A program made the position numbers and the translations under genes. The notes beneath the pieces were generated by a model, which worked only from the letters and a program-made list of their open reading frames with translations, searched no databases and was not told the DNA's origin. Below, in pieces: positions 1,293 to 36,530 of a DNA stretch of 36,530 nt. Position 1 is the first letter of the stretch, and the number at the start of each line of letters is the position of its first letter. This stretch comes from a virus: IMG/VR virus record IMGVR_UViG_3300029263_001577, positions 1 through 36,530 of that record; one strand, given 5' to 3'.

Positions 1293-2747
1293 TTAAGCTA
1301 CCACGCCATATCCTTCAGGCAAAACAAATGCCAGCGACCATTTCCGCATATCGTAAGGTTGGCCAACCAAGGCAGGTATATTTGCAGCAGACTCCATCCC
1401 AACACCTTCCTTATATTCATAATTGTAAGGCGCTATATCTCCATTACCATCATTAACCCACCCGCAGCCACCCGCTCTAATGGTTGTTCCCCAACCCTCA
1501 CCTGCCGCATACCACACATAAGCATTTCCGTTAGGCTCCGATGATATTTCTATTTCAATAGTGTTTGAGCTTGCGACCGAAACGCTAACAATACCGATAC
1601 TTGTTGTTGAAAGACCATCCGTAACCTTGAATCCTTTTTTTGTTGAGTTTTGAATGACTGCGTATCCATCGTATACGTCATCATCTAATGAAATTGCATT
1701 AGTATTATATTGAACACTGATTATTGTACCGGATCTCGTTATAGAAATAGGCCTCAATGCCTCAAATTCTATTTTATTAACTAAAATATCAACAAGGGCT
1801 CGACCAAACCAACAGCCTAGATTTCTTGTCCCATTTGCTGATAAATGCGTCCCTTTGTCTGTTACAGGGTAAACGTTTGAAACAATGTAGGCGTTAGATG
1901 TTTCTTCCGACATTTCGTACTGCGCCATTTGAACAGGCAGGTCAGGGTCGCCATTTACGTCCTTGTCTAGCGCGTTACCCCAAACAGCTTGGGTCTGATA
2001 GTTCAGCCAGATAGGGCTATCTGTTTGTCCTAATATGGCTTTTATGTCAGCCGTATAGTCAGATTCAAGTTGCGCAAGCTTTGCTTTGTATATCGCCCTT
2101 GTTGTTGACGCTGCTCTATCGCTCTCGCCTTGCATCCATATTACCGCAATAACTCCTATGGATTGTCCTGCTGCATCAGCCAAGCCTTTAACCTGTGACA
2201 AATATGTTTCAAATACCCCGTAGCGGTACGGATCGTCAGCATAATCCTTACTTAGTTGATCTATGCTAGATCCGCTATTGCCGACACAGTTGGTCAAAAT
2301 GTACTTATCGCTATCAAACCCGTATTTATCATAAATAGCTTCAGCTAGCATGTTTACTGCCGAGTAATTAACCTTTTCCCCCATCACTCCTTCTGAGGCA
2401 GGCAGTGATGCAAGAGACTCATCAGATACAGGATGCTCTACTCCTGGCATATCATTAGTTCCCGCCAACGAATTAAATTGAGCGTTACCACGAGTTATAA
2501 ATGTTGGAACATCGTCAACCTTTGCTGTAACCGACTCTCCATACATTAAAGTGTTTGCGGCACAGGTTTTAGTTAATGATGGAAACGCTTGATACCCTTT
2601 TGAAAGCGACTGACCTGCAACCAAAACAATATTTATATCATATTTTAATGGACTCTCATCTCCAACTATGCCCGAAGACACCCTCCCCGCTCGATTAACA
2701 AACGCATTTTCAATTGAGCTATTAATCGGTTGATTAATAAATTTCAT
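1293..2747 (-). CDS. tail-tip SGNH esterase (sialate O-acetylesterase-like)
   Basis: 484 residues. The SGNH-type blocks are in order: VAGQS at about 43-47 (nucleophile region), GNSG near 156-159, WMQGESD at 204-210 (the QGE signature of sialate O-acetylesterase/acetylxylan esterase-like proteins) and KGTHLS with a probable catalytic His at 301. The C-terminal 170 residues are beta-rich and have no family I recognise. As the last gene of the late operon it is placed like a receptor-binding protein or tail spike that deacetylates surface polysaccharide. Start ATG 2747 has AAGGGG upstream. Esterase activity and substrate are inferred. Confidence 0.75.
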   Translation of the reverse strand: MKFINQPINSSIENAFVNRAGRVSSGIVGDESPLKYDINIVLVAGQSLSKGYQAFPSLTKTCAANTLMYGESVTAKVDDVPTFITRGNAQFNSLAGTNDMPGVEHPVSDESLASLPASEGVMGEKVNYSAVNMLAEAIYDKYGFDSDKYILTNCVGNSGSSIDQLSKDYADDPYRYGVFETYLSQVKGLADAAGQSIGVIAVIWMQGESDRAASTTRAIYKAKLAQLESDYTADIKAILGQTDSPIWLNYQTQAVWGNALDKDVNGDPDLPVQMAQYEMSEETSNAYIVSNVYPVTDKGTHLSANGTRNLGCWFGRALVDILVNKIEFEALRPISITRSGTIISVQYNTNAISLDDDVYDGYAVIQNSTKKGFKVTDGLSTTSIGIVSVSVASSNTIEIEISSEPNGNAYVWYAAGEGWGTTIRAGGCGWVNDGNGDIAPYNYEYKEGVGMESAANIPALVGQPYDMRKWSLAFVLPEGYGVVA

Positions 2748-2756
2748 AGCCGCCCC

Positions 2757-3041
2757 TTATTTATCAATCGGGATAAGAATATCTTCATCCGCGCGCACCC
2801 AGACAACACCTTGCAGCAACGCTTGATTTGCTGTATCCATTCGACCGTAAAATCCGTAAGGAGGGACGCGCTTACCGGAAACATAACCCTCCTCAGCTGG
2901 GTCTATTTCTGGTTTTGTTGCAGCATTAACAACGTATAACATGTTGTTAGATACTGGATTCTGCATCGAGAAATCTTGCTCTGCCGTCGCTGCCTGCGTC
3001 CAATCGCTTGCTAAAACAGTTAGCATTGTTGTTTCTGACAT
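2757..3041 (-). CDS. small tail protein, unknown function
   Basis: 94 residues, immediately upstream of the esterase gene (about 9 bases apart) and downstream of a terminator hairpin. The C-terminal half (KRVPPYGFYGRMDTAN...VVWVRADEDILIPI) looks like a compact beta domain. It may be a tail-fibre accessory or capping domain, but I do not recognise the family. Confidence 0.6.
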   Translation of the reverse strand: MSETTMLTVLASDWTQAATAEQDFSMQNPVSNNMLYVVNAATKPEIDPAEEGYVSGKRVPPYGFYGRMDTANQALLQGVVWVRADEDILIPIDK

Positions 3042-3054
3042 GTTTTTTACTCCA

Positions 3055-3092
3055 TAAAAAAACCGGCAACGCGTTAACGCTGCCGGTTTATA
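3055..3092 (-). terminator. intrinsic terminator after the 346-aa tail gene
   Basis: Stem AAACCGGCA/TGCCGGTTT (3060-3068 with 3081-3089) encloses the palindrome GCGTTAACGC. On the minus strand it is followed by a T run. Confidence 0.8.
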
Positions 3093-3115
3093 TTTTGTGT
3101 TTTGTCTATTTTAAA

Positions 3116-4156
3116 TCACAACAAACCATCGCGGGTATAGTTGCTGACCTTCTCTTTTACTACGCCGCTTGTGTTAACAATAACGCTCTGTCCAAGCACA
3201 TCAACACTACCATCGGCCTGCAGTTTTGTAATCATTGTATTGCCGTTTTCTAGTGCATTTAGCTCATATCTATTACCCAAGCCATCGCACATCTCTATCC
3301 GTGACGGCGGGTTGTATTTGTAGCCGTCAGCCGCATCAGGATCGTACTCACTTGCTTGGAATTTACCATTAATCACGGCGAGGGAGGTTATATCGTCTGA
3401 TGGCCATTCGGTTTCTAAAAGAAGATCTTCAGGGGATGGGTTGCAGTAGTCCGCGCCAGAGCCTCCACACTCAAACTTAAAGACATTATAAGATCGAATT
3501 GAATAAGAATCAGGGTATGCCGGATTTACCATTTTTCTATCATAGTAATCAACACTCACCCACGACCGATTATTAGCAATCCCCCCAGGCCCGCCGCTAC
3601 CTCTAAGATACCAATCCCCCGACCAATGAAAACCATCAATTACAACCTGCGACCTACCAGCGGCATGAGCCCCACCTTCCGTTGGATATACCGGGTTGGC
3701 ATAATACGCCCCATTTCCCCAGTAATACCCTGGCTGGTATGTAGAATCTACCGGCGGCGTATTCGCATCATCCCACCCTGTAGGCGCTTGATATTCTTGC
3801 CCTGGCATGGGCGCAAGGTCTAGCTGTATTTTGTCGCCGGTTGCGCAATCGTAGCCTTCAAACTCATCCGCTTTATCACCTTCCTCTAAATCGTCAGTGA
3901 TTGTTTTGTAGTTGCGTTCTTTTGTTTGCGAGCCGCTATCGTCCGGCGTTTCCGTAGAGGCTTCATCCGGCAGTTCGCCGCTATTGGATTCGATATCGCC
4001 GTTTGAGTTATAAAAGGCAACGCCACGCGTTTTACCGATCGCCGCTTTTTTATTTGCAGGACTTAGGCGCCCATCCTCTTCGATAGCGGTTTTTGCTATA
4101 CGCCGCACCGCTTGCACGATGCGTTGGTTATTAGCTTCTACGCTTTTTTTTGTCAT
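3116..4156 (-). CDS. tail-tip/fibre protein, unknown family
   Basis: 346 residues. The N-terminus (about 1-45) is a basic helix, followed by an acidic, low-complexity linker (about 60-105). A central region rich in Gly, Tyr and Trp (about 130-200) and a C-terminal beta-rich part follow. No catalytic motif is visible. Its place between the hub-like protein and the esterase suggests a structural part of the tail tip or fibre shaft. Confidence 0.6.
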   Translation of the reverse strand: MTKKSVEANNQRIVQAVRRIAKTAIEEDGRLSPANKKAAIGKTRGVAFYNSNGDIESNSGELPDEASTETPDDSGSQTKERNYKTITDDLEEGDKADEFEGYDCATGDKIQLDLAPMPGQEYQAPTGWDDANTPPVDSTYQPGYYWGNGAYYANPVYPTEGGAHAAGRSQVVIDGFHWSGDWYLRGSGGPGGIANNRSWVSVDYYDRKMVNPAYPDSYSIRSYNVFKFECGGSGADYCNPSPEDLLLETEWPSDDITSLAVINGKFQASEYDPDAADGYKYNPPSRIEMCDGLGNRYELNALENGNTMITKLQADGSVDVLGQSVIVNTSGVVKEKVSNYTRDGLL

Positions 4157-4165
4157 AGATAACCT

Positions 4166-6064
4166 TTACACATGTGTGATTAACAACGGATCGTTTGGAA
4201 TGCTTATATCGTATGCCGCCACTCTTTCCGCCTCGCGCTCATCACGATCAATATCATCTATCGCGGGGGTATCAACTATAAATGCGGTTGGATACTGCTG
4301 TAGCGTAGACACCTGATCGTAATATTTGTAGTTGCTGATGTAGCCGGTCCAGCTCTCATCTAGCTGCCCAGCACCGTAGGCATTACCCAAATGCACGCCC
4401 AACCGGATTGTGCTGTTTGTTACTGCCTGATCCGCCACGTTTGGCTTAGCAGGATTAACAAGCGCCGTTTCTGTATAGCTGCCCGTTGCAGGCGCCCTGC
4501 TTAATACAAGCCGCCCTTTGGTTTGTCGCACGCCCGTGGCGCGATTAAACTCATGGGTGATGCTATACACGCGGCCAACACAATCAACCCGCCCATCGGC
4601 GAGTTGCAGGGTATGATGCGTATCAATGTCGGAAAAAACCTGTTTCGGCAGTTTAAAATCGACATAGTTTTTACGATGCGCTTGCAGTAGCTCGCGCTTG
4701 TACATTGTTAATACAATAGAGAGCACGTCATCAAACGCACTACGGCTACCGTAATCGGTACTTGTTGCATCGATGATCCAATCGCCGTTGGGTGACTGTA
4801 CTGCCCCGTCTGGCGGATCAGAGTAAACTTCTGCATCATCCCATTCATCATCTGCATAATCAGCGGTTACCCCGTGCGAACGATCCGACGATGGGACCTC
4901 GCCCCACACCTCAATACTTTCTGATGCTGTGAATGTTAGGCTGTATTTTTCGGTAATGGTTTGAGTAAAACGATTAGCTAGCGACCAGCTTGCAGAAACA
5001 GCATAGAGCTCTGGCGATGGGTTAACCCAACCTTGGCTTAGGCCATTCACCGTATACGCCCCAGTAGCAGGAATATCCTGATAGCTAACCGCGCCTTTAA
5101 GCTCCCAACCGGTTGATTCAATGGCGGACCGTATTAGGGTTTTTGGCACTAGAGGGTAGGGCTTAACCATGTAATCACCCCAGTAATCAACCCCCGGCGC
5201 TTCCCAATAATATTCCCGCTCACGATGACGCAAACGGGTATATCGGTATTCAACATCAACACTGATTTTATTAACTAGGCTTTTGGAGTCTTGCAGGGTA
5301 ACGCTTAGCATATCTTCTGATAAGTCGTTGCCTGTAAGCACTTTATCAACAGCGCCTACCGCCCACGGTACTAGGCGTATAACCCCGTACGCATCAACTT
5401 GTAGGCTTGCCATTCGAGTGCGCAGTAGATCGTTGGCGTAATCCTCGCCTTCAGCCTCTTCATCAAACAGATATTCGGACCACTCGCCACCAATGAGCGT
5501 ATCAATCTCATCACGGCTCATTTTATCCAGCTGCTTACTTAGCAATGTACTCGCTGCAATTTGGGTACGGCCCGTTTCAACAGAATAAGTTGGCGTCTCT
5601 ACCCACCCAGTAAACACTCTATCTGCAGATCCATCTGGCTGAATATAATCAATCGTCACTTTTTTATTAATAACCGCCAGCGGATCAACAACACCCGCCG
5701 GATTTTTAAGCACAAAACTTGCGGTTTTATTTTGCCCTTCCTGCCCTGTAACTATAACCGTGCCTGTAACGCGCGGCGTAACGTCAACACCATCAACCAA
5801 AACAACCGCCTCCCAGCGCCTGCTTTTTTTGGCAACATGCACATCTAGCGTCAACAACGACCGCGCCGGATATCGCGCACACACATCTACATCAAAACCA
5901 AGCAACGTTTGCGCGGAGTAAGCCGCTTTATACTGCACATCAACATCAAACGCTAACAGCTCAGCCGCCGCTTGCTTGGCCTGCACATTGGCATTAAACC
6001 CCAACAACCTAACCGCAGGCTGCTTTGGCTGCACGTTTACGTTAAAAGAGGTTAATACTGTCAT
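4166..6064 (-). CDS. putative tail hub protein with N-terminal repeats
   Basis: 632 residues. The first about 85 residues hold five degenerate copies of a roughly 16-residue unit, LLxFxVxVQxKxAxx (for example LLGFNANVQAKQAAAE and LLGFDVDVCARYPARS). A region resembling tail hub or baseplate proteins follows (VTGTVIVTGQ...VFTGWVETPTYSVETGRTQI, about 100-185), then a long beta-rich section. No lambda-like M, L, K, I or J gene is found, so this gene probably supplies the hub function. Its ATG overlaps the stop of the preceding gene (TAATG), indicating coupled translation. Confidence 0.55.
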   Translation of the reverse strand: MTVLTSFNVNVQPKQPAVRLLGFNANVQAKQAAAELLAFDVDVQYKAAYSAQTLLGFDVDVCARYPARSLLTLDVHVAKKSRRWEAVVLVDGVDVTPRVTGTVIVTGQEGQNKTASFVLKNPAGVVDPLAVINKKVTIDYIQPDGSADRVFTGWVETPTYSVETGRTQIAASTLLSKQLDKMSRDEIDTLIGGEWSEYLFDEEAEGEDYANDLLRTRMASLQVDAYGVIRLVPWAVGAVDKVLTGNDLSEDMLSVTLQDSKSLVNKISVDVEYRYTRLRHREREYYWEAPGVDYWGDYMVKPYPLVPKTLIRSAIESTGWELKGAVSYQDIPATGAYTVNGLSQGWVNPSPELYAVSASWSLANRFTQTITEKYSLTFTASESIEVWGEVPSSDRSHGVTADYADDEWDDAEVYSDPPDGAVQSPNGDWIIDATSTDYGSRSAFDDVLSIVLTMYKRELLQAHRKNYVDFKLPKQVFSDIDTHHTLQLADGRVDCVGRVYSITHEFNRATGVRQTKGRLVLSRAPATGSYTETALVNPAKPNVADQAVTNSTIRLGVHLGNAYGAGQLDESWTGYISNYKYYDQVSTLQQYPTAFIVDTPAIDDIDRDEREAERVAAYDISIPNDPLLITHV

Positions 6065-6501
6065 TAGGGTTTAACTCGCACTTGTACTGCTGAAACATCA
6101 ATTGTTAAATCGGACGCTATACCGACCACCGAGCGCGTATTTTCAAACCGCACATGCAACTCAACCGCACCGCTCTCGCCGGCCGTGATTGTAGTACCCA
6201 GCGACAACGGATCACCCGCCGTTGCAGAATCCAGACCTAGCAACGTAGTTGATAATTTAATTTCGCTTACACTTTGACCACCCACCGGATCACCATCCGC
6301 AGGCGTTAGCACAATGTTATCAACGCCCGGATTTGGATCAGCAACTACCTCATAATCACCTGTATCACTTTCATCCGCCTCAACATCAGCGAGGTAAAAA
6401 ACAAAGTCCTGCGCACCTTCACTATGATCAGTAAACGCAGCAACAGGCACACTCGAACCCACCGCCGTTGTACACGCGGCATCTGTATAAAGTTTTAACA
6501 T
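6064..6501 (-). CDS. small tail protein, beta-rich
   Basis: 145 residues, acidic, rich in Thr, Val and Asp, with a predicted all-beta character (for example GAVELHVRFENTRSVVG). It is the first gene after the tape measure gene, where lambda has M, but no similarity to gpM is visible. It could be a tail-tip connector or an Ig-like decoration domain. Confidence 0.55.
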   Translation of the reverse strand: MLKLYTDAACTTAVGSSVPVAAFTDHSEGAQDFVFYLADVEADESDTGDYEVVADPNPGVDNIVLTPADGDPVGGQSVSEIKLSTTLLGLDSATAGDPLSLGTTITAGESGAVELHVRFENTRSVVGIASDLTIDVSAVQVRVKP

Positions 6502-6530
6502 TGATAAATTCCGTAACGAAAATAAGACAC

Positions 6531-6553
6531 AAAAAAAAGCCCTAAAAAGGGCC
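6531..6553 (-). terminator. intrinsic terminator after the tape measure gene
   Basis: Stem GCCCT/AGGGC (6539-6543 with 6548-6552) and eight T on the minus strand. Confidence 0.8.
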
Positions 6554-6570
6554 TATATTTAAATCAAAAA

Positions 6571-8394
6571 CTACAAACCGGATGCAGCACCCTCTAACAA
6601 GCTAGCAATACTGCTCTCGAACTCATCCTTAGTTTCTGCCGTTATAGATAGGTTTTTGTTTTTACCCGGCACTGCCAGCTCTAACACAAACTTTTTGGTT
6701 GGGCCGTTTTGCTTTGACGCCCCTTGAATCGCTTGACGCTGAACCTCTAAATACTCCTCAACTTTTTTGGTCATCTCAGCCGAACTTTCAGATACCAGCG
6801 TAAGCTTATCGCCGTTTTCGCGGGTAACTTCTAGCAGCGACTTACCCCCTTCTTTACTATCCGCCGCACCACTTCTGCGAGAGTCTTTATCAGGATCTTT
6901 ATAATCAAGCCCTGCCTGTTCGCGCAGCAATAGCACAACATCCTTCATGCCCTGCAAATCATAATTAGAGGCCCAACCATAGTTTTTAGATGCCACATAA
7001 GACGCTTGCGCACGATCAATAAACTGCCCCGCAGCCTGAGCATTACCACCATCCAGCAACCGCTTTGCCGATTTAGCCTCAGACTCAAAATTAAAGTTGC
7101 GGTTATAATTTTTCGGCTTACTCTCATCTTCAGCAAAAAGCTTGCTGTATAAGCTTGTACCTTTCGCCCCACGGGACTTAGCCAACTGCAACGATTCTTT
7201 TTGGGCTTTTAAGCGCCGCTCTTCTAGCTCTGCAAGTTTTTTGGCTTCGATAACTTGCTGCTGCTGCGCCTCTCTGAATTTTTCCGCATCCGCCTGCGCT
7301 TTTTTCAGGCGCTCTTCGCGGGCATCCTCATCAGCACGAAGCTCTTTAAGGCGCGTCTTAACTTCCGATAGCTGTACCTCATACCCACTTCGGCCCCGAA
7401 CTCGACTTTTACTTAATTTACTTTCTAGCTCATTACGCTCTGCCAGCAATCGGTTGTACTCAATAACAGGCTCAGGATCGATATCATTTTTAAAATTACG
7501 AAACCCTTGCGCCAAAAGATCCATAACACCTTTAGTCGCATCGCCCGCCTTTGTTACTTTAGCCAAGCTTTCTGCTAGCTCATCAAAGTCTTGACCTAAG
7601 GTATCAACCGATCCCGCAAAACTCTCAGCCTCTCGCTGAGCGGCACCACCAAACTGCCCCGCTACCTTATCCAACAGCAGGCCTTGCGCTTCTAATAGCC
7701 GCCCACTTTCTGCCAGCGTTTTAATTTTTTCTTTCTCTTGCGCATTAAATGACACACCGGATCGGGTTAATGCAGACAATCCTTTTGTCGGCTCTTCTAG
7801 CGCTTTACCCAGCTGCAAAATTGATGATTTAGCCTCGCCACCTGTCACCGCCGCCATGTCTTGCGCCAAACTGATCGCGCGCGTGAACGTATCACCACTC
7901 ACCGATTTAAACGTCAACAGTATAGCTTGGGCATCACGAATCCCTTCTGTGCTTGCTAATGTACTACGTGCCACTGCCCGCGCATTCTGGTCTAATTGAT
8001 CAACCGTTTGCCCACTGGCATTTCCAGTTGATTTTAATAGCGCCTCTGTTCGCAATAATTGCCGCTCAGTCTCAGCAAGAACACCAACACCCTTACCAAT
8101 AACAACTGCAGAGCCAGCAATAGCCAAGCCCGCCGCAGTACCCGCTACGCCTACAGTTGCAAATCCTGCTGCAATACCACTTAACCGACTAGATACCCCA
8201 CCAAACGGGCCGTCTAAAACAGCTACAGCATTACTCGCACGCCTAAAGCCCGCTTCCATCTTACTTGTCTCAGCCCGCGCCATCTTTGCACGTTTACCAA
8301 ACTGCTGAACCTTATTTCCAGCTTGCGTCACATTTCGATCAAACGTGGATGTTTTTGCGCGCATCTCTATATCAAGCACTGCAACGTTTGTCAT
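6571..8394 (-). CDS. H: tail tape measure protein
   Basis: 607 residues. The N-terminus (about 1-110) is an amphipathic and Gly/Ala-rich hydrophobic segment (AAGFATVGVAGTAAGLAIAG). It is followed by the block typical of lambda-family tape measure proteins: ARAVARSTL, ILLTFKSVSGDTF, GRLLEAQGLLLDKVAGQFGG, FAGSVDTLGQDFDEL (about 140-275). A long charged coiled coil follows (about 300-420). The protein sets tail length and is ejected into the cell with the DNA. It lies downstream of the chaperone genes as expected, but two inserted cargo units separate it from them. Confidence 0.85.
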   Translation of the reverse strand: MTNVAVLDIEMRAKTSTFDRNVTQAGNKVQQFGKRAKMARAETSKMEAGFRRASNAVAVLDGPFGGVSSRLSGIAAGFATVGVAGTAAGLAIAGSAVVIGKGVGVLAETERQLLRTEALLKSTGNASGQTVDQLDQNARAVARSTLASTEGIRDAQAILLTFKSVSGDTFTRAISLAQDMAAVTGGEAKSSILQLGKALEEPTKGLSALTRSGVSFNAQEKEKIKTLAESGRLLEAQGLLLDKVAGQFGGAAQREAESFAGSVDTLGQDFDELAESLAKVTKAGDATKGVMDLLAQGFRNFKNDIDPEPVIEYNRLLAERNELESKLSKSRVRGRSGYEVQLSEVKTRLKELRADEDAREERLKKAQADAEKFREAQQQQVIEAKKLAELEERRLKAQKESLQLAKSRGAKGTSLYSKLFAEDESKPKNYNRNFNFESEAKSAKRLLDGGNAQAAGQFIDRAQASYVASKNYGWASNYDLQGMKDVVLLLREQAGLDYKDPDKDSRRSGAADSKEGGKSLLEVTRENGDKLTLVSESSAEMTKKVEEYLEVQRQAIQGASKQNGPTKKFVLELAVPGKNKNLSITAETKDEFESSIASLLEGAASGL

Positions 8395-25714: not shown

Positions 25715-25728
25715 CACTTTCTTATTTC

Positions 25729-25789
25729 TATAACACTACGCTCATCAGTACAGCTCGTAACCTCGCAGACGTTGAACTACCTGTTATTC
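25729..25789 (-). repeat. attC-like site E
   Basis: On the minus strand it begins ATAAC (overlapping the stop of the 25784-26059 gene) and ends GTTATAG, with imperfectly complementary inner arms and the loop GCGAGGTTACGAGC. The first about 35 bases are identical to the plus-strand site at 34578-34640. Confidence 0.75.
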
Positions 25790-26059
25790 TTTTAAATGGT
25801 CGAACTCGCGGTTGCTGTGATCAATAAATGCACCGATAGCAGAACCTAATTTAATTAAACTATTGTATTGGCTTTTTTCTAACTGCATCCCACATTCATT
25901 TTCGATATGTTTTTTGCTTAAAACATTACAAAGCGCCCACGCAGTATCTCTATCAAGCTCAAGTCTCAAAGTTCCTACTTCTATATTTGAGTTAGTACCA
26001 TCGATGACACCCTGCATTTCATCACTCTTAATTGCTTTATTTCCTAATCTTTTCATCAC
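25784..26059 (-). CDS. cassette gene, unknown function
   Basis: 91 residues. No family is recognised; the sequence is mixed alpha (VGTLRLELDRDTAWALCNVLSKKHIENECG) and lacks signal peptide or membrane segments. GGACGTG precedes the start. It is flanked by attC-like sites F and E and its stop codon forms part of site E, the tight packing of integron cassettes. Confidence 0.65.
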   Translation of the reverse strand: MMKRLGNKAIKSDEMQGVIDGTNSNIEVGTLRLELDRDTAWALCNVLSKKHIENECGMQLEKSQYNSLIKLGSAIGAFIDHSNREFDHLKE

Positions 26060-26078
26060 ACGTCCTTTAATTTAAAAG

Positions 26079-26138
26079 ATAACAATGCAATCAATCCGAC
26101 TGCTCGCTGCTCTCGCGCGTTTTATAGCGTGGTTATTT
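26079..26138 (-). repeat. attC-like site F
   Basis: Minus strand: ATAAC at the gene stop, GTTAT about 55 bases later, imperfect inverted arms between. It belongs to the same sequence family as the plus-strand site at 34324-34386; both contain GAGCAGTCGGATTGATTGC. Confidence 0.75.
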
Positions 26139-26366
26139 GGGCGCTATTAACTTGTCGAAAGCGTTGTAATCAATCTCACTGATAGTCACGTTACCGAAAG
26201 CATCAGGCTCTGCGGTATTACCAACCAAGTCATACCAGCTTTCTTTCAGCTCTTTCATTTCATTTTCAAGAGCAACAAGCTTCATGTACATTGCGCCTGC
26301 CTGTTTCTGTGTCATTTTCATACTTATTTGAACGGCCATTTCTATATCTCCCACGCCAAATAACAA
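26133..26366 (-). CDS. cassette gene, unknown function
   Basis: 77 residues. A helical N-terminal part (QISMKMTQKQAGAMYMKLVALENEMKELKESWYDLVG, about 10-46) looks like a short coiled coil; the rest is acidic. No family is recognised. An internal ATG at about residue 10 is an alternative start. The stop codon overlaps the first bases of site F. Confidence 0.6.
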   Translation of the reverse strand: MLFGVGDIEMAVQISMKMTQKQAGAMYMKLVALENEMKELKESWYDLVGNTAEPDAFGNVTISEIDYNAFDKLIAPK

Positions 26367-26421
26367 GGCGCTTAATCATTGACTGCTCGTAAACTCGCAG
26401 CCTGTTAGCTTTTGGTTATTC
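26358..26421 (-). repeat. attC-like site G
   Basis: Minus strand: ATAAC..., inner arms AAAGCTAACAGGCTGC and the longer complementary arm around TGATTAAGCGCCTT, then GTTAT. One arm carries extra bases, as attC hairpins do. The loop GCGAGTTTACGAGC is shared with other sites. Confidence 0.72.
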
Positions 26422-26592
26422 GTGCGCTAATAAGCTGTCAGATTTAAACTTCTCAAAAGCTCTTTGTGTTTCCATTGCAATTACGGTTGCAGAGTACGAG
26501 CGCGGCTGAAATGATGCAGTTTTAGCATTCTAGATAACGGCGCGGGAAACGCCGTATTGTTTTTTAAATTCTTCTAAATATTTCTCTCTCAT
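26416..26592 (-). pseudogene. cassette gene with an in-frame amber codon
   Basis: From ATG 26592, preceded by GGGAGG, the frame runs MREKYLEEFKKQYGVSRAVI, meets TAG at 26532-26530, then continues in the same frame for 37 codons (NAKTASFQPRSYSATVIAM...) to a TAA that forms the start of site G. A single base change (for example TAG from CAG) explains the break. It is too short to appear as a normal gene. The SxYSATVIA segment resembles arginine-rich small cassette proteins, but the family is not recognised. Confidence 0.6.
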
Positions 26593-26612
26593 ATTTATCA
26601 ACCTCCCGCGCA

Positions 26613-26675
26613 AAATAACAATACGCTTAATTCTGAATCTCGTTCCACTCGCTCAAATTAGCGCGGGGCTATTTA
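26613..26675 (-). repeat. attC-like site H
   Basis: Minus strand: left end ATAGC (one base off ATAAC) beside the stop of the NinX-like gene, right end GTTAT. Inner arms GCGCTAATTT and AGAATTAAGCGT are complementary with extra bases. Confidence 0.68.
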
Positions 26676-27011
26676 GTCCTGCTGCATATCAAGAAAAACC
26701 TCTACGGCAGCTCTTAGAGGATTGGTATCCCAATACTCAATGTCGTCTCTATTCATAGGTAGGTTGCTAGAAGTTAGATGAGCATAGCCATCACCACAAA
26801 CAGTGATGTTGTATGTTGATATCAACCGCCAAGTATCTGAGGCGTTATTGCAGTAATCGAGCGGATAAGCTTGACGCAATACGCTGCCACCAATGCAATG
26901 CCGTGTAATACTTCTTTCGCCTATATGAACATCTTCTTCAATTCCAAGGGCAGCAACTACCAAGCAATTAAGCTCATGATCGCTCAAATTTTCATTAATC
27001 CTTTTCATCAC
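26673..27011 (-). CDS. NinX/DUF2591-like protein in a cassette
   Basis: 112 residues. LSDHELNCLVVAALGI (about 9-24), DYCNNASDTWRLISTYNITV (about 52-71) and the closing NPLRAAVEVFLDMQ (about 97-110) fit the DUF2591/NinX family, usually found in phage early regions. Here it lies between attC-like sites I and H. GGAG precedes the start. That a phage-type gene has become a cassette is unusual; function of the family is unknown. Confidence 0.7.
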   Translation of the reverse strand: MMKRINENLSDHELNCLVVAALGIEEDVHIGERSITRHCIGGSVLRQAYPLDYCNNASDTWRLISTYNITVCGDGYAHLTSSNLPMNRDDIEYWDTNPLRAAVEVFLDMQQD

Positions 27012-27028
27012 TCCGTAGGCCTCAGTCT

Positions 27029-27082
27029 AAATAACAAGTTAAAGCAAGCAGACAGCTCGTAACCTCGCTTGCGGTTGTTTAG
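27029..27082 (-). repeat. attC-like site I
   Basis: Minus strand: AACAACCGCAAGC ... GCTTGCTTTAACTTGTTAT. The arms GCAAGC/GCTTGC pair perfectly and the loop is GCGAGGTTACGAGC, shared with sites E and D1. It starts about 14 bases after the stop of the upstream gene. Confidence 0.7.
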
Positions 27083-27095
27083 GTGGCTAAAACCA

Positions 27096-27278
27096 CTACT
27101 TGTACACTTCACACATATAATCGCCGCCTGCATCCTGCACACAAATTCTGTACTCAACTGGTTTTTTAGGCATTAACCAATCAGCAGCACCAAAGCCGCA
27201 CGCCACTAAAAAACCAGCAATAAAAAAACAGACCATCGGCTTAATATTTTCTTTCAAGTGGTAACTAAAGTTTTTCAT
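27096..27278 (-). CDS. small membrane protein, first cassette gene
   Basis: 60 residues with one hydrophobic segment (MVCFFIAGFLVACGFGAADWL, about 15-35) and a short C-terminal part with two Cys. No family is recognised; the LVAC in the membrane segment is too internal for a standard lipobox. A GTTAGCT motif at about 27296-27302 upstream may be the right end of an older recombination site. Confidence 0.6.
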   Translation of the reverse strand: MKNFSYHLKENIKPMVCFFIAGFLVACGFGAADWLMPKKPVEYRICVQDAGGDYMCEVYK

Positions 27279-27313: not shown

Positions 27314-27514
27314 CTATCTATTACTACATAACCCGCAATTTGATTCACAAGCAGGCCCCGCCTCTCGCTCAAAATCACCACACTTAACCACTTTTACATC
27401 CTCTGAATGATCAATCTCAATAACAAGGCAATGCTTAAACTCAATCGCAGAACAATCCTCATCACGATGCTCACAAACCGCACACATGCCACCTTTAGGG
27501 ATAAACTCACTCAT
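27314..27514 (-). CDS. cysteine-rich early protein
   Basis: 66 residues with eight Cys, in CAVC, EDC, HC, KCGDF, AC, NCGLC contexts, suggesting zinc binding. Its ATG overlaps the stop of the dNMP kinase gene (ATGA). The family is not recognised. Confidence 0.6.
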   Translation of the reverse strand: MSEFIPKGGMCAVCEHRDEDCSAIEFKHCLVIEIDHSEDVKVVKCGDFEREAGPACESNCGLCSNR

Positions 27515-32682: not shown

Positions 32683-33618
32683 ATGATTACAATAAACAGT
32701 TACTTTTGCGGCGCAGGACTAATGGATATAGGGCTACAAAATGCAGGACTCACAATCAACCAAGCATTTGAGCTGGACAAAGACGCCTGCAAAACGTACA
32801 GCGCAAACCTTGGCGATCACGTAACCCAATGCGACATATCTGAAAAGCTAGTGATAGAACAAGAATCATGCGACGGCATGATCTTTACATACCCCTGCAC
32901 AAAATACAGCACCATAGCCGACATACACAAAACCCGCACAGGCGACGAACTATTCCTGCACACACTTCGCCACCTAGCAATCGCACGCCCTGAGTTCTAT
33001 GCAGTAGAAAACGTACCAGGCATGAAAGCATTCCCCATCGTAATGGAAGCAATGACAAAAATGCCAGACTACTACGTGCAAGTATTCTGCCCCATAAAAT
33101 CAGAGCAATGGCTACCACAGCGCCGCAACAGACTAATCATTGTTGGCACCCGTCGATCATTCAATATAAGACCGCCCAAAAACACCCGCGCCATCAAGTT
33201 AGCCGATATTATTGAGACCGACCCACAAATAACACAACCAAAAGCCATAGCAGCAAGAATGAGCGGAAAGTACAGAGACCTACCAATCATATCCGACCCC
33301 AAAAAAGGAGACATCGCGCCCACCTGTATAGCCCACTACGCAAAAGACAAAAGCACACGGCTAGTAAAAGATGAACGATACCCTTTAGGCGTTAGACCCT
33401 ACTCAGTCAGAGAATACGCCCGACTCCAAGGATTGCCCGACTCTTTCAAGTTCCCAGTTTCCGACACAGCAGCTTATCGACAGATCGGCAACGGCGTATC
33501 CGTACCCGTAGGCGAATGGATTGGTGAAGAAATACAGCGATACATGAAACAAAAAAAAGACCGAGGCGCAGCGCGTCTTTATGCGGGCTTAAAAAGCCGG
33601 AATAACCCCACGGCTTAG
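32683..33618 (+). CDS. DNA (cytosine-5) methyltransferase
   Basis: 311 residues. C5 motifs in order: FCGAG (8-12, AdoMet binding), PC at 71-72 with the catalytic Cys, ENV at 109-111, QRRNR at 146-150 and GNGVSVPVGEW near the C-terminus. The variable target region is short. No restriction endonuclease is adjacent, so it is probably an orphan enzyme protecting phage DNA or altering host methylation. AAGGAG precedes the start. The last about six codons run into attC-like site A, so the C-terminal tail may have been replaced by cassette insertion. Confidence 0.88.
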   Translation: MITINSYFCGAGLMDIGLQNAGLTINQAFELDKDACKTYSANLGDHVTQCDISEKLVIEQESCDGMIFTYPCTKYSTIADIHKTRTGDELFLHTLRHLAIARPEFYAVENVPGMKAFPIVMEAMTKMPDYYVQVFCPIKSEQWLPQRRNRLIIVGTRRSFNIRPPKNTRAIKLADIIETDPQITQPKAIAARMSGKYRDLPIISDPKKGDIAPTCIAHYAKDKSTRLVKDERYPLGVRPYSVREYARLQGLPDSFKFPVSDTAAYRQIGNGVSVPVGEWIGEEIQRYMKQKKDRGAARLYAGLKSRNNPTA

Positions 33619-33664
33619 CCGATGGAGTGCAACGACAGTCGAGCCTAGAGCTGATTGTTATACG
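33600..33664 (+). repeat. attC-like site A
   Basis: Starts ATAAC (33602-33606), ends GTTATAC (33657-33663). Arms GGCTTAGCCGATG and CAGTCGAGCCTAGAGC pair with extra bases on one side, the asymmetric hairpin of attC. It overlaps the last codons of the methyltransferase gene. Nearly identical to site B. Confidence 0.8.
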
Positions 33665-33688
33665 GCAACTAACTACGGAGAAATATAC

Positions 33689-33919
33689 ATGTATTTAACA
33701 GTACAAGAGATTATAGATTTAGCTGAGTTTTCAGGATTGAAGGTTATTAGTGAGCTTAATGATGAAGAGCTAGAGACTGAGATAACCATAGGTGCTGACT
33801 GTAACGGTATTGAGATAGCAGACGATGAAGGTGTAGTTGAGAAGTACAGAGCGGCGGCTAGATGTGATGGTTGTGACTATGATGAACTTCAACCACTTGG
33901 AAAGCCTCTAGACGTATAA
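33689..33919 (+). CDS. cassette gene, unknown function
   Basis: 76 residues, acidic (EEIDL-type helices and DDEGVVEKY), with a CDGCDYDEL segment. GGAG precedes the start. The stop TAA forms part of site B. No family is recognised. Base composition on the coding strand (GT-rich) differs sharply from the upstream AC-rich phage genes. Confidence 0.65.
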   Translation: MYLTVQEIIDLAEFSGLKVISELNDEELETEITIGADCNGIEIADDEGVVEKYRAAARCDGCDYDELQPLGKPLDV

Positions 33920-33977
33920 CCCCACGGCTTAGCCGATGGAGTGCAACGACAGTCGAGCCTAAAGCCGATTGTTATGG
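33914..33977 (+). repeat. attC-like site B
   Basis: ATAAC (33916-33920) to GTTAT (33971-33975). GGCTT pairs with AAGCC, and TAGC.CGA.TG pairs with CAGTCGAGCCTA leaving unpaired bases on one side. It differs from site A at about two positions. Confidence 0.82.
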
Positions 33978-33999
33978 TGGTCTAAATTGGAAAGGAAAA

Positions 34000-34329
34000 A
34001 TGAAAAGAAGAGTCACTAAAAAGCTTAGCAAAAAGTTATTTAACTTAATCAAAACAAAGCAAACATTTAACAATGTTATTAAAAGCGTCTGGATTAATGA
34101 TGATGAGTGCGGCGATGAAATGCCTTACGGAACGCCATGTATTGGCGGTGAGTTTGATTCATATTCAGGCGATGCATCGGAAATTTTTACGGTTTACGAG
34201 TATTTGAGGTCGTATTGTGAATTCAGCTTCCCCGATAACGATTGGAATCCTGAGTCTGGGGATTGGCCGATACACAAAAGAAAGATCACAGGGCTTCGTG
34301 TGATTAAGTTAATCAAGGCGACACCATAA
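34000..34329 (+). CDS. cassette gene, unknown function
   Basis: 109 residues. Basic N-terminus (MKRRVTKKLSKKLFNLIKTK), then an acidic and aromatic middle (GGEFDSYSGDASEIFTVYEYL) and ITGLRVIKLIK at the end. AAAGGA precedes the start. The stop overlaps site C. No family is recognised. Confidence 0.65.
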   Translation: MKRRVTKKLSKKLFNLIKTKQTFNNVIKSVWINDDECGDEMPYGTPCIGGEFDSYSGDASEIFTVYEYLRSYCEFSFPDNDWNPESGDWPIHKRKITGLRVIKLIKATP

Positions 34330-34386
34330 CCCAGCGATAAAACGCGTGAGAGCAACGAGCAGTCGGATTGATTGCTTTGTTATAAA
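34324..34386 (+). repeat. attC-like site C
   Basis: ATAAC (34326-34330) to GTTAT (34379-34383), with GAGCAGTCGGATTGATTGC inside. Same family as minus-strand site F in the other array. Confidence 0.78.
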
Positions 34387-34400
34387 TCGGAGATGACGCA

Positions 34401-34583
34401 ATGAAACCGGAATTACAACAAGCTCCTTTATCTGAAGAGGCAGCAATATTAGTTCTCATAGACCTAGCTCAGGACTCAGTTGATCAGTGCTATGCATGGG
34501 GTAATGACGCTACTGCTGACGCTAATTCGGCACGGCTAGAAGAGGCTAAAGCATTAATACTGAGCAGAATAGGAGGTTTATAA
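34401..34583 (+). CDS. cassette gene, unknown function
   Basis: 60 residues, almost entirely helical (SEEAAILVLIDLAQDSVDQC and SARLEEAKALILSRIGG). The stop overlaps site D1. No family is recognised. Confidence 0.6.
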   Translation: MKPELQQAPLSEEAAILVLIDLAQDSVDQCYAWGNDATADANSARLEEAKALILSRIGGL

Positions 34584-34640
34584 CAGGTAGTTCAACGTCT
34601 GCGAGGTTACGAGCCGCACCGATGAACGCAGTGTTACTAA
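34578..34640 (+). repeat. attC-like site D1
   Basis: ATAAC (34580-34584) to GTTAC (34633-34637). GTTCA...TGAAC and TGCG...CGCA form the hairpin. The first about 35 bases are identical to minus-strand site E. Confidence 0.75.
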
Positions 34641-34683
34641 GCAAGCAGAATTGACTTGGTGACAGGCTGGCCGCAACTGGGCA
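34641..34683 (+). other. ORF-less remnant between sites D1 and D2
   Basis: About 45 bases between two recombination sites, too short for a gene. It may be the remnant of a deleted cassette or an empty cassette. Confidence 0.45.
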
Positions 34684-34742
34684 AAATAACCCTCCAATTT
34701 TGCGGCTCGCGTAGCGGACCCAAAAGAGCTGATTGTTATACG
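34684..34742 (+). repeat. attC-like site D2
   Basis: ATAAC (34686-34690) to GTTATAC (34735-34741). Its right end GAGCTGATTGTTATACG matches site A, while the inner arms (TTTTGCGGCTCGCG) differ. Confidence 0.72.
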
Positions 34743-34761
34743 AATATTTTAGGGATTAGAA

Positions 34762-34989
34762 ATGACTTACACAGCAAAAAACCATTGGCTAGACAGAGAT
34801 GAAACTGCCGACACAATGCTAGAAATAATGAAGGAGTGCCAGGTATTTAAAGTGCTTAAAAAAGGCTATGAATTTGAAGTTATTGAATGCTGTGATGGGT
34901 ATTTCGGTGTAACTTTAACTAAAGAGCAAATGCTTGCGCTTGCTGACGAAATTAAAGCTTTAGCTAATAGCGTACAACCCGAGAGCTAG
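34762..34989 (+). CDS. cassette gene, unknown function
   Basis: 75 residues: an N-terminal helix (ETADTMLEIMKECQVFKVLKKG), a beta part (YEFEVIECCDGYFGVTL) and a closing helix (KEQMLALADEIKALANS). No family is recognised. A truncated copy of the D2 arm (ATTTTGCGGCTCGCG, about 35001-35017) follows the stop, so the array ends in a broken attC. Confidence 0.6.
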   Translation: MTYTAKNHWLDRDETADTMLEIMKECQVFKVLKKGYEFEVIECCDGYFGVTLTKEQMLALADEIKALANSVQPES

Positions 34990-35035
34990 AGGAAAAGTTA
35001 GATTTTGCGGCTCGCGATTAACAAAGCAAGGACAT

Positions 35036-35486: not shown

Positions 35487-36530
35487 CTAATCTATATCCT
35501 CGGGCCTTAAATGCGTATACCGCTTAAGCGTCGCCCAATCCTCATGCAGAGTATGCAACGCCACCTGCTCGATAGGATAACCCTGCTCAAATAATCGGCT
35601 AGTCCCCTCATGCCGCAAATCATGCAGCCGCAAATCATCAATCCCCAGCACTTTGCACGCTTTCGCAAAATACATTGAAACCGTTTTAGCATTATACGGA
35701 AAAATCAGCTCACCACCCCGAGGCTGTCGCTCAACAATCTTCCACGCACCCGCCGTATACTTAAACCGCTTATGATTACCCTTTTTAGCAGTAGGATGCT
35801 TTGCGTCGCGCACCATCCCCGTCCGCCGCTCTTCATTATTATCATCCCACCGCAACCGACACGTTTCCGCATCACGCCGTGCACTATAAATCTGAAACCA
35901 CATTAAATGCAGCATAGGCACCGTCATACATGATCGATACTGCTTGCGCCAAAAATAACGCGACAACGCCCACAACTCAGCCCGCGTTGGCCGCCGATCC
36001 CGCCGCCGCGACCTTGCAATCATCTTATGCTGCCGCAACAACGCCTTAGCATCAGGAATTAACGACAAATCAATCGGAATACCATCACTCGCCCTAACCG
36101 TCTTAAAAATACCCGACAACCAAACATAATCATTATTAATCGTAGACGGCCCCGCCCCCATATCTTTACGATACCGCGCGTGCTCGATCAAATCCTTAAC
36201 CGTTAAACGCATCACAGACTTTTTACTCATCGGACACGTTAACAGCTTATTAATATCGTGCGCCTTAGACCGACCAAACCCATCATCCGGCGTAAAACTA
36301 TCAATATAACGCTGCACAACATCACCCACCGTTACACGCTCAGCAACAACCCTATCCACGCCACCTGCTCCGCGCAACTCTCGCTCCCGCTCAGCTGCCC
36401 AATCAACCGCCGACGCTTTCTTACTGAATGTTTTAGACTCTCTATGTATAATCTCCCCTTTTTCTTTAATTAAAATCTCAGCCTTATAACGCAATCCCTT
36501 TAATGTTTTGCGCCTGGTAATACTAGCCAT
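35487..36530 (-). CDS. int: tyrosine site-specific integrase
   Basis: 347 residues; the start codon is the last codon of the window. The SAM-like DNA-binding domain spans about 65-155. Catalytic residues are Arg 218 or 219 in SARRDAETCRLRW, Lys about 250, His 303 and Arg 306 in HDLRHEGTSR, His 329 and Tyr 338 in LKRYTHL. The IntI-specific insertion is not visible, so it is a phage-type rather than an integron integrase. By position it should recombine attP with the dusA site; attR should follow immediately outside the window. Confidence 0.9.
   Translation of the reverse strand: MASITRRKTLKGLRYKAEILIKEKGEIIHRESKTFSKKASAVDWAAERERELRGAGGVDRVVAERVTVGDVVQRYIDSFTPDDGFGRSKAHDINKLLTCPMSKKSVMRLTVKDLIEHARYRKDMGAGPSTINNDYVWLSGIFKTVRASDGIPIDLSLIPDAKALLRQHKMIARSRRRDRRPTRAELWALSRYFWRKQYRSCMTVPMLHLMWFQIYSARRDAETCRLRWDDNNEERRTGMVRDAKHPTAKKGNHKRFKYTAGAWKIVERQPRGGELIFPYNAKTVSMYFAKACKVLGIDDLRLHDLRHEGTSRLFEQGYPIEQVALHTLHEDWATLKRYTHLRPEDID

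Follow-up and report, generated by a model that had tools for sequence, protein, structure and literature searches.

CALINs, arrays of attC sites that lack an integrase, were reported in phages in 2023 and, in the accessible parts of that report, the attC sites of three virulent phages were recombined with IntI1 (Qi et al. 2023, PMC9892861). The phage arrays described below resemble these in being attC arrays without an integrase, but the TJE1 site examined here is of ordinary polarity, and the same parts of the report contain, as far as we could find, no description of antisense cassettes or of a site family common to unrelated phages. A preliminary description of the present DNA had supposed integron cassettes in temperate phages to be rarely described; according to the accessible text of PMC9892861 they had already been described, temperate phages included. 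The integron of the Shewanella prophage M16-3 (MZ568829) shares with our arrays their position inside a prophage, the ATAAC/GTTAT ends and the complementarity of each cassette to its own far end, but M16-3 has intI and its sites are sense to the genes. A departure in orientation within the integron is also known from the reverse integrons of Treponema, though there, in the parts of the reports available, the integrase gene and the cassettes point in one direction and the gene-to-attC order is not described as reversed (PMC3607928, PMC4909258). The dusA-associated prophage integrases are related to our case through a sister phage whose integrase adjoins host dusA, although their topic, in the accessible text, is prophage integration and not cassettes (PMC4482086). 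A literature search limited to openly accessible journal papers met with no account of arrays in which every cassette is antisense.

We report two CALINs in a temperate marine phage in which, as we think likely from sequence comparison, the cassettes run back to front, with every gene antisense to its own attC. The stretch analysed, referred to as the window, is a whole 36.5-kb IMG/VR virus record (IMGVR_UViG_3300029263_001577) of a lambdoid marine phage, whose portal protein is 60% identical to that of Marinobacter phage PS3 and whose genes include those for a dNMP kinase, a DnaT-like replication protein and a tyrosine integrase. The minus strand carries array 1, which has a Cys-rich gene that adjoins the dNMP kinase gene on one side and the replication genes on the other. 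Only this array had been recognised in the preliminary description; array 2, on the plus strand at 33602-34990 between a cytosine methyltransferase gene (dcm) and the phage integrase, had been overlooked and was found by comparison with a relative. Each array has five sites (Table 1) and there is no intI in the record, which places them among CALINs in the sense of at least two close attC sites without an integrase. The absence of an integron integrase from the window had been stated before and is borne out here, the sole match to TIGR02249 being weak and partial (16.2 bits) and lying inside the phage integrase.

Table 1. Sites and genes of the two arrays, with the phage integrase; R1 is the covariance model described in the text.
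Feature	Coordinates	Strand	Remarks
Type-4 site E, last of array 1 in gene order, proposed anchor	25730..25785	-	Type-4 last in 5/6 arrays
Cassette gene 1, 90 aa, no family	25784..26056	-	Block with site D also in L005 array 2
attC D (cassette 1), antisense to genes	26079..26136	+	R1 17.5 bits, + strand
Cassette gene 2, 68 aa	26133..26339	-	
attC C of cassette 2	26360..26419	+	R1 17.7 bits, + strand
Cassette gene 3, broken by in-frame TAG	26416..26592	-	Seen in the sequence
attC B of cassette 3	26615..26672	+	R1 12.9 bits, + strand; under the background maximum of 15.8 bits
Cassette gene 4, NinX family (PF10765, E 1.3e-8)	26673..27008	-	
attC A of cassette 4, short, degenerate	27031..27076	+	Family HMM E 1.4e-4; R1 does not return this site in full
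attC F	33602..33661	-	R1 12.9 bits, - strand
Gene, 76 aa	33689..33919	+	Array 2
attC G	33916..33975	-	R1 17.6 bits, - strand
Gene, 109 aa	34000..34329	+	Array 2
attC H	34326..34383	-	R1 24.7 bits, top match in window
Gene, 60 aa	34401..34583	+	Array 2
Type-4 site I	34580..34637	+	Array 2
attC J	34686..34739	-	R1 12.0 bits, - strand
Gene, 75 aa, then truncated site remnant to 35016	34762..34989	+	Array 2
Phage tyrosine integrase	35487..36530	-	Not integron integrase

Array 1 holds five imperfect inverted repeats (A-E) within 25730-27076, placed on the minus strand at 27076-27031, 26670-26615, 26417-26360, 26134-26079 and 25785-25730, which end in ATAAC/GTTAT, with the exceptions ACAAC in A and ATAGC in B, and have the loop GCGAGNNNNACGAG or close to it. 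The stop codons of most array genes overlap the ATAAC. To this extent the preliminary description was accurate: its five repeats with a common loop have all been located, two of them with degenerate ends, the small gene it called broken carries the in-frame TAG, and the overlap of stop codons with the left end of the repeat is as it said. It had, though, given each of five genes a following repeat, whereas the polarity of the sites ties each to the gene downstream, leaving four cassettes and placing the 60-aa gene at 27096-27278 outside array 1. Nor are the five repeats of one kind, for the last (25785-25730) is of another kind and lies in the opposite orientation. A short stretch within the Cys-rich gene, at 27411-27434, is similar to the right end of an attC (TTAAGCATTGCCTTGTTATTGAG), possibly as a remnant or by chance. 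At the far end of array 2 stands the methyltransferase gene (32683-33618), whose 3' end resembles the tail of the 74-aa gene that replaces it in a sister phage, so that this end of the array, judging from that likeness, is remodelled too. A DNA search with the arrays against named phages and plasmids gave 0 matches, a pattern scan of genome contigs gave a single match in Bacillota that is probably due to chance, and PADLOC returned nothing for the small cassette proteins tested.

In a real integron, the bases that precede AAC in R'' are complementary to the beginning of their own cassette, even across hundreds of bases, since the circular form brings the two together. Across 24 gene units from five arrays, the sequence upstream of each site is complementary to the far 5' end of its own unit at 119 of 144 bases, against 73 of 144 for the neighbouring unit and a permuted mean of 79.5; all 20,000 permutations fell short of 119. 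The M16-3 integron, which has its intI, behaved in the same way as a control (46/54 against 26). The inner arms, L'' and L', are complementary and pair within the site, scoring 230.6 compared with 168.7 +/- 8.0 when the right halves are shuffled between the 33 sites, and the R'' and R' boxes, with their AAC end and GTT start, appear as ATAAC/GTTAT in nearly all sites, two being degenerate. The folding energies of single sites are weak to modest and not decisive, and a structure-only scan did not discriminate the sites. Two further candidates fell away: locus L017 was taken as a false positive within coding sequence, and a stretch of phage H101 that had been guessed to be its CALIN contained no recognisable attC.

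In ordinary attC sites the extrahelical base lies in the arm next to R'', where the sequence AACAA is read. Read in the direction of their genes, 24 of the 33 phage sites have the extra base in the right arm (three left, six ties) and 22 of the 33 have TTGTT at the right. Of the 15 Shewanella control sites, 13 have the base in the left arm and all 15 have AACAA at the left. Fisher tests were applied to both sets of counts. Read antisense to the genes, therefore, 24 of the 27 decided sites carry the extra base where an attC should have it. The same polarity is given by a covariance model, R1, whose training set was confined to known attC sites of other phages (15 of the Shewanella prophage integron and one of TJE1); it was run with filters off and, being small, gives rough E-values. 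The orientation control consists of that one integron and one TJE1 site. The seven best matches of R1 in the window all fall on array sites, and each is antisense to the genes, on the plus strand in array 1 and the minus strand in array 2. Four exceed the background maximum of 15.8 bits, found in 95 kb of other phage DNA that includes other parts of the L021/L022 and L023-L025 phages, and three (12.0-12.9 bits) fall within it. In loci L005, L021 and L024 the array sites that R1 reports, type 4 apart, also score best antisense. R1 has two further matches outside the main arrays, at L021:6725-6789 (25.6 bits) and L024:19668-19726 (19.1 bits).

Comparison with relatives bears directly on what moves. 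The sister phage (contig 3300047667_001319; L002/L005) has backbone stretches 94-98% identical to the window, or 83% beside array 1, and carries different cassettes in array 1 and ten sites in array 2. Its contig runs into host dusA (L005:14476-15108) beside an integrase homologous to that of the window, and the sister is thus a prophage at dusA; the best matches to this dusA in the plasmid and phage collections are at about 61-64% identity. Gene 1 (25784-26056) and its upstream attC D form a block, bounded exactly from ATAAC to ATAAC, that the window has in array 1 and the sister in array 2, with unrelated DNA on both sides, and the next attC downstream is of a different type in the two phages. 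For this last reason our own first reading of the unit, a gene with its downstream attC, was dropped. The 75-aa gene of array 2 is uninformative on what moves: its shared block starts inside the upstream site and stops inside the truncated one, with no clean end at a site.

The architecture given in the preliminary description, in which the attC comes after its gene and reads in the same sense, as in a standard cassette, is therefore not what we find. Since the extrahelical base, the AACAA motif and the sister phage all agree with the model, the mobile unit, as read from these comparisons, is an attC with the gene downstream of it, the genes being antisense to the attC. Where near-identical sites clearly share a flank, it is the downstream flank in the phages and the upstream flank in both Shewanella pairs, which fits a cassette composed of attC and downstream gene better than one composed of gene and downstream attC. 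The claim that these are integron-type cassettes nevertheless holds, on site structure, own-end complementarity, the independent covariance model and the exact cassette in different arrays of two sisters. It was to have been given up if a covariance model of attC found no match or if the same genes lay in synteny in all related phages; the model of genuine attC sites does match, and the sister has different cassettes at that place.

Near-identical sites are also common to the window phage and two unrelated phage contigs whose arrays have the same site types. One (L021/L022) encodes PhoH, a sliding-clamp-like protein, a thymidylate synthase and a DNA transfer protein; the other (L023-L025) encodes NinB, SSB and NinG. 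Such sharing points to a separate cassette pool that phages may draw on. A tail module at 2694-7248 of the window is 96.6% identical to contig 3300046449_000160 (L023), which is elsewhere a different phage, and this common module suggests that the two have a host in common. Between the sister and one of the unrelated phages, 71 bases are identical (L005:12508-12578 and L021:11217-11287), comprising an attC and a leader with its ribosome-binding site, and they precede different genes; this stretch may bear on how cassettes form.

The type-4 site stands apart from the others. Taken in the order of the genes, it closes five of six arrays (p=0.0004), stands before the backbone or a further gene, and has a different gene before each copy. 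Five of its seven copies match the attC model in the gene sense, opposite to the other sites, while the model reports neither of those in the window; its arm asymmetry disagrees with this model polarity. The first position of an integron is attI; in the arrays' own orientation type 4 is the first site and holds that position in five of the six. By analogy of position, the type-4 site may be an attI-like insertion anchor.

A cassette of this kind would consist, in the order of transcription, of an attC, a leader with a ribosome-binding site and a gene, and the expected crossover (AA^C, and G^TT on the other strand) would fall at the stop codon of the gene. The phage operon would transcribe the genes, which all face the same way, from the end of the array opposite the start of the site orientation. 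At that start the constant type-4 site would serve as the anchor, new cassettes entering beside it. No intI was found in the four phage records, which are possibly incomplete, so the arrays are not complete integrons and the integron integrase would be supplied in trans, most likely by the host or else by another element. The cargo, which includes the phage early families NinX and gp49/66, would be accessory phage early genes; to judge from these families, the genes made into cassettes seem to have been those of phages and not those of the host. An origin of the antisense cassettes from standard host cassettes is unlikely, because attC recombination is not expected to reverse the direction of a gene inside the cassette that holds it. 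The full reading, in which phages have their own pool of cassettes, kept apart from ordinary bacterial ones by the antisense build, with arrays growing from the type-4 anchor through a trans-acting integrase and unrelated phages that share a host exchanging early accessory genes as finished units, is one to which we give not quite an even chance. Our preferred explanation, that of antisense cassettes, is weakened by the fact that just one cassette has been seen in two different arrays, and plain cassette movement gives no account of one attC-plus-leader type preceding different genes.

The overlap of gene stop codons with the left end of each site, which the Shewanella array shows too, and the existence of phage CALINs of ordinary polarity in the accessible parts of PMC9892861 would be natural if, as the preliminary description held, these were standard cassettes, gene then attC, taken from a host chromosomal integron; with the model, the extra base and the motif all making the sites antisense, and gene 1 keeping its upstream attC while its downstream one differs between the two phages, we regard that account as very improbable. 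The inverted repeats are intergenic, in polycistronic regions, and their folding energy is modest, as might be said of terminators, RNA-processing hairpins or MITE-like repeats between phage genes. Such elements are not expected, however, to show far-end complementarity, to match a model of genuine attC or to be shared as exact units, and an Rfam scan of the window gave no family at the gathering threshold, so that we give this explanation hardly any credence.

A somewhat different proposal accepts that the sites derive from integrons and holds that they are no longer mobilised by integrase, homologous recombination between phages swapping the cassettes through the repeated sites. No integron integrase was found in the phage records, the phages are mosaic, the common tail module being an example, and some junctions look like plain deletions; yet the common cassette switches exactly at ATAAC on both sides, despite neighbouring sites of different types, and most cassettes retain complementarity to their own ends. 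We therefore consider this proposal unlikely and prefer integrase-mediated movement of antisense cassettes.

The early regions of phages are highly variable and rich in small genes of unknown function, whose exchange calls for an explanation. In the present arrays the units of exchange seem to have recognisable recombination sites at their limits, and their antisense build would mark phage cassettes off from the ordinary cassettes of the host. The placing of one attC-plus-leader unit before many different genes bears on how cassettes are made. We predict that more arrays of this kind will come to light when phage genomes are screened for attC sites lying antisense to the genes.
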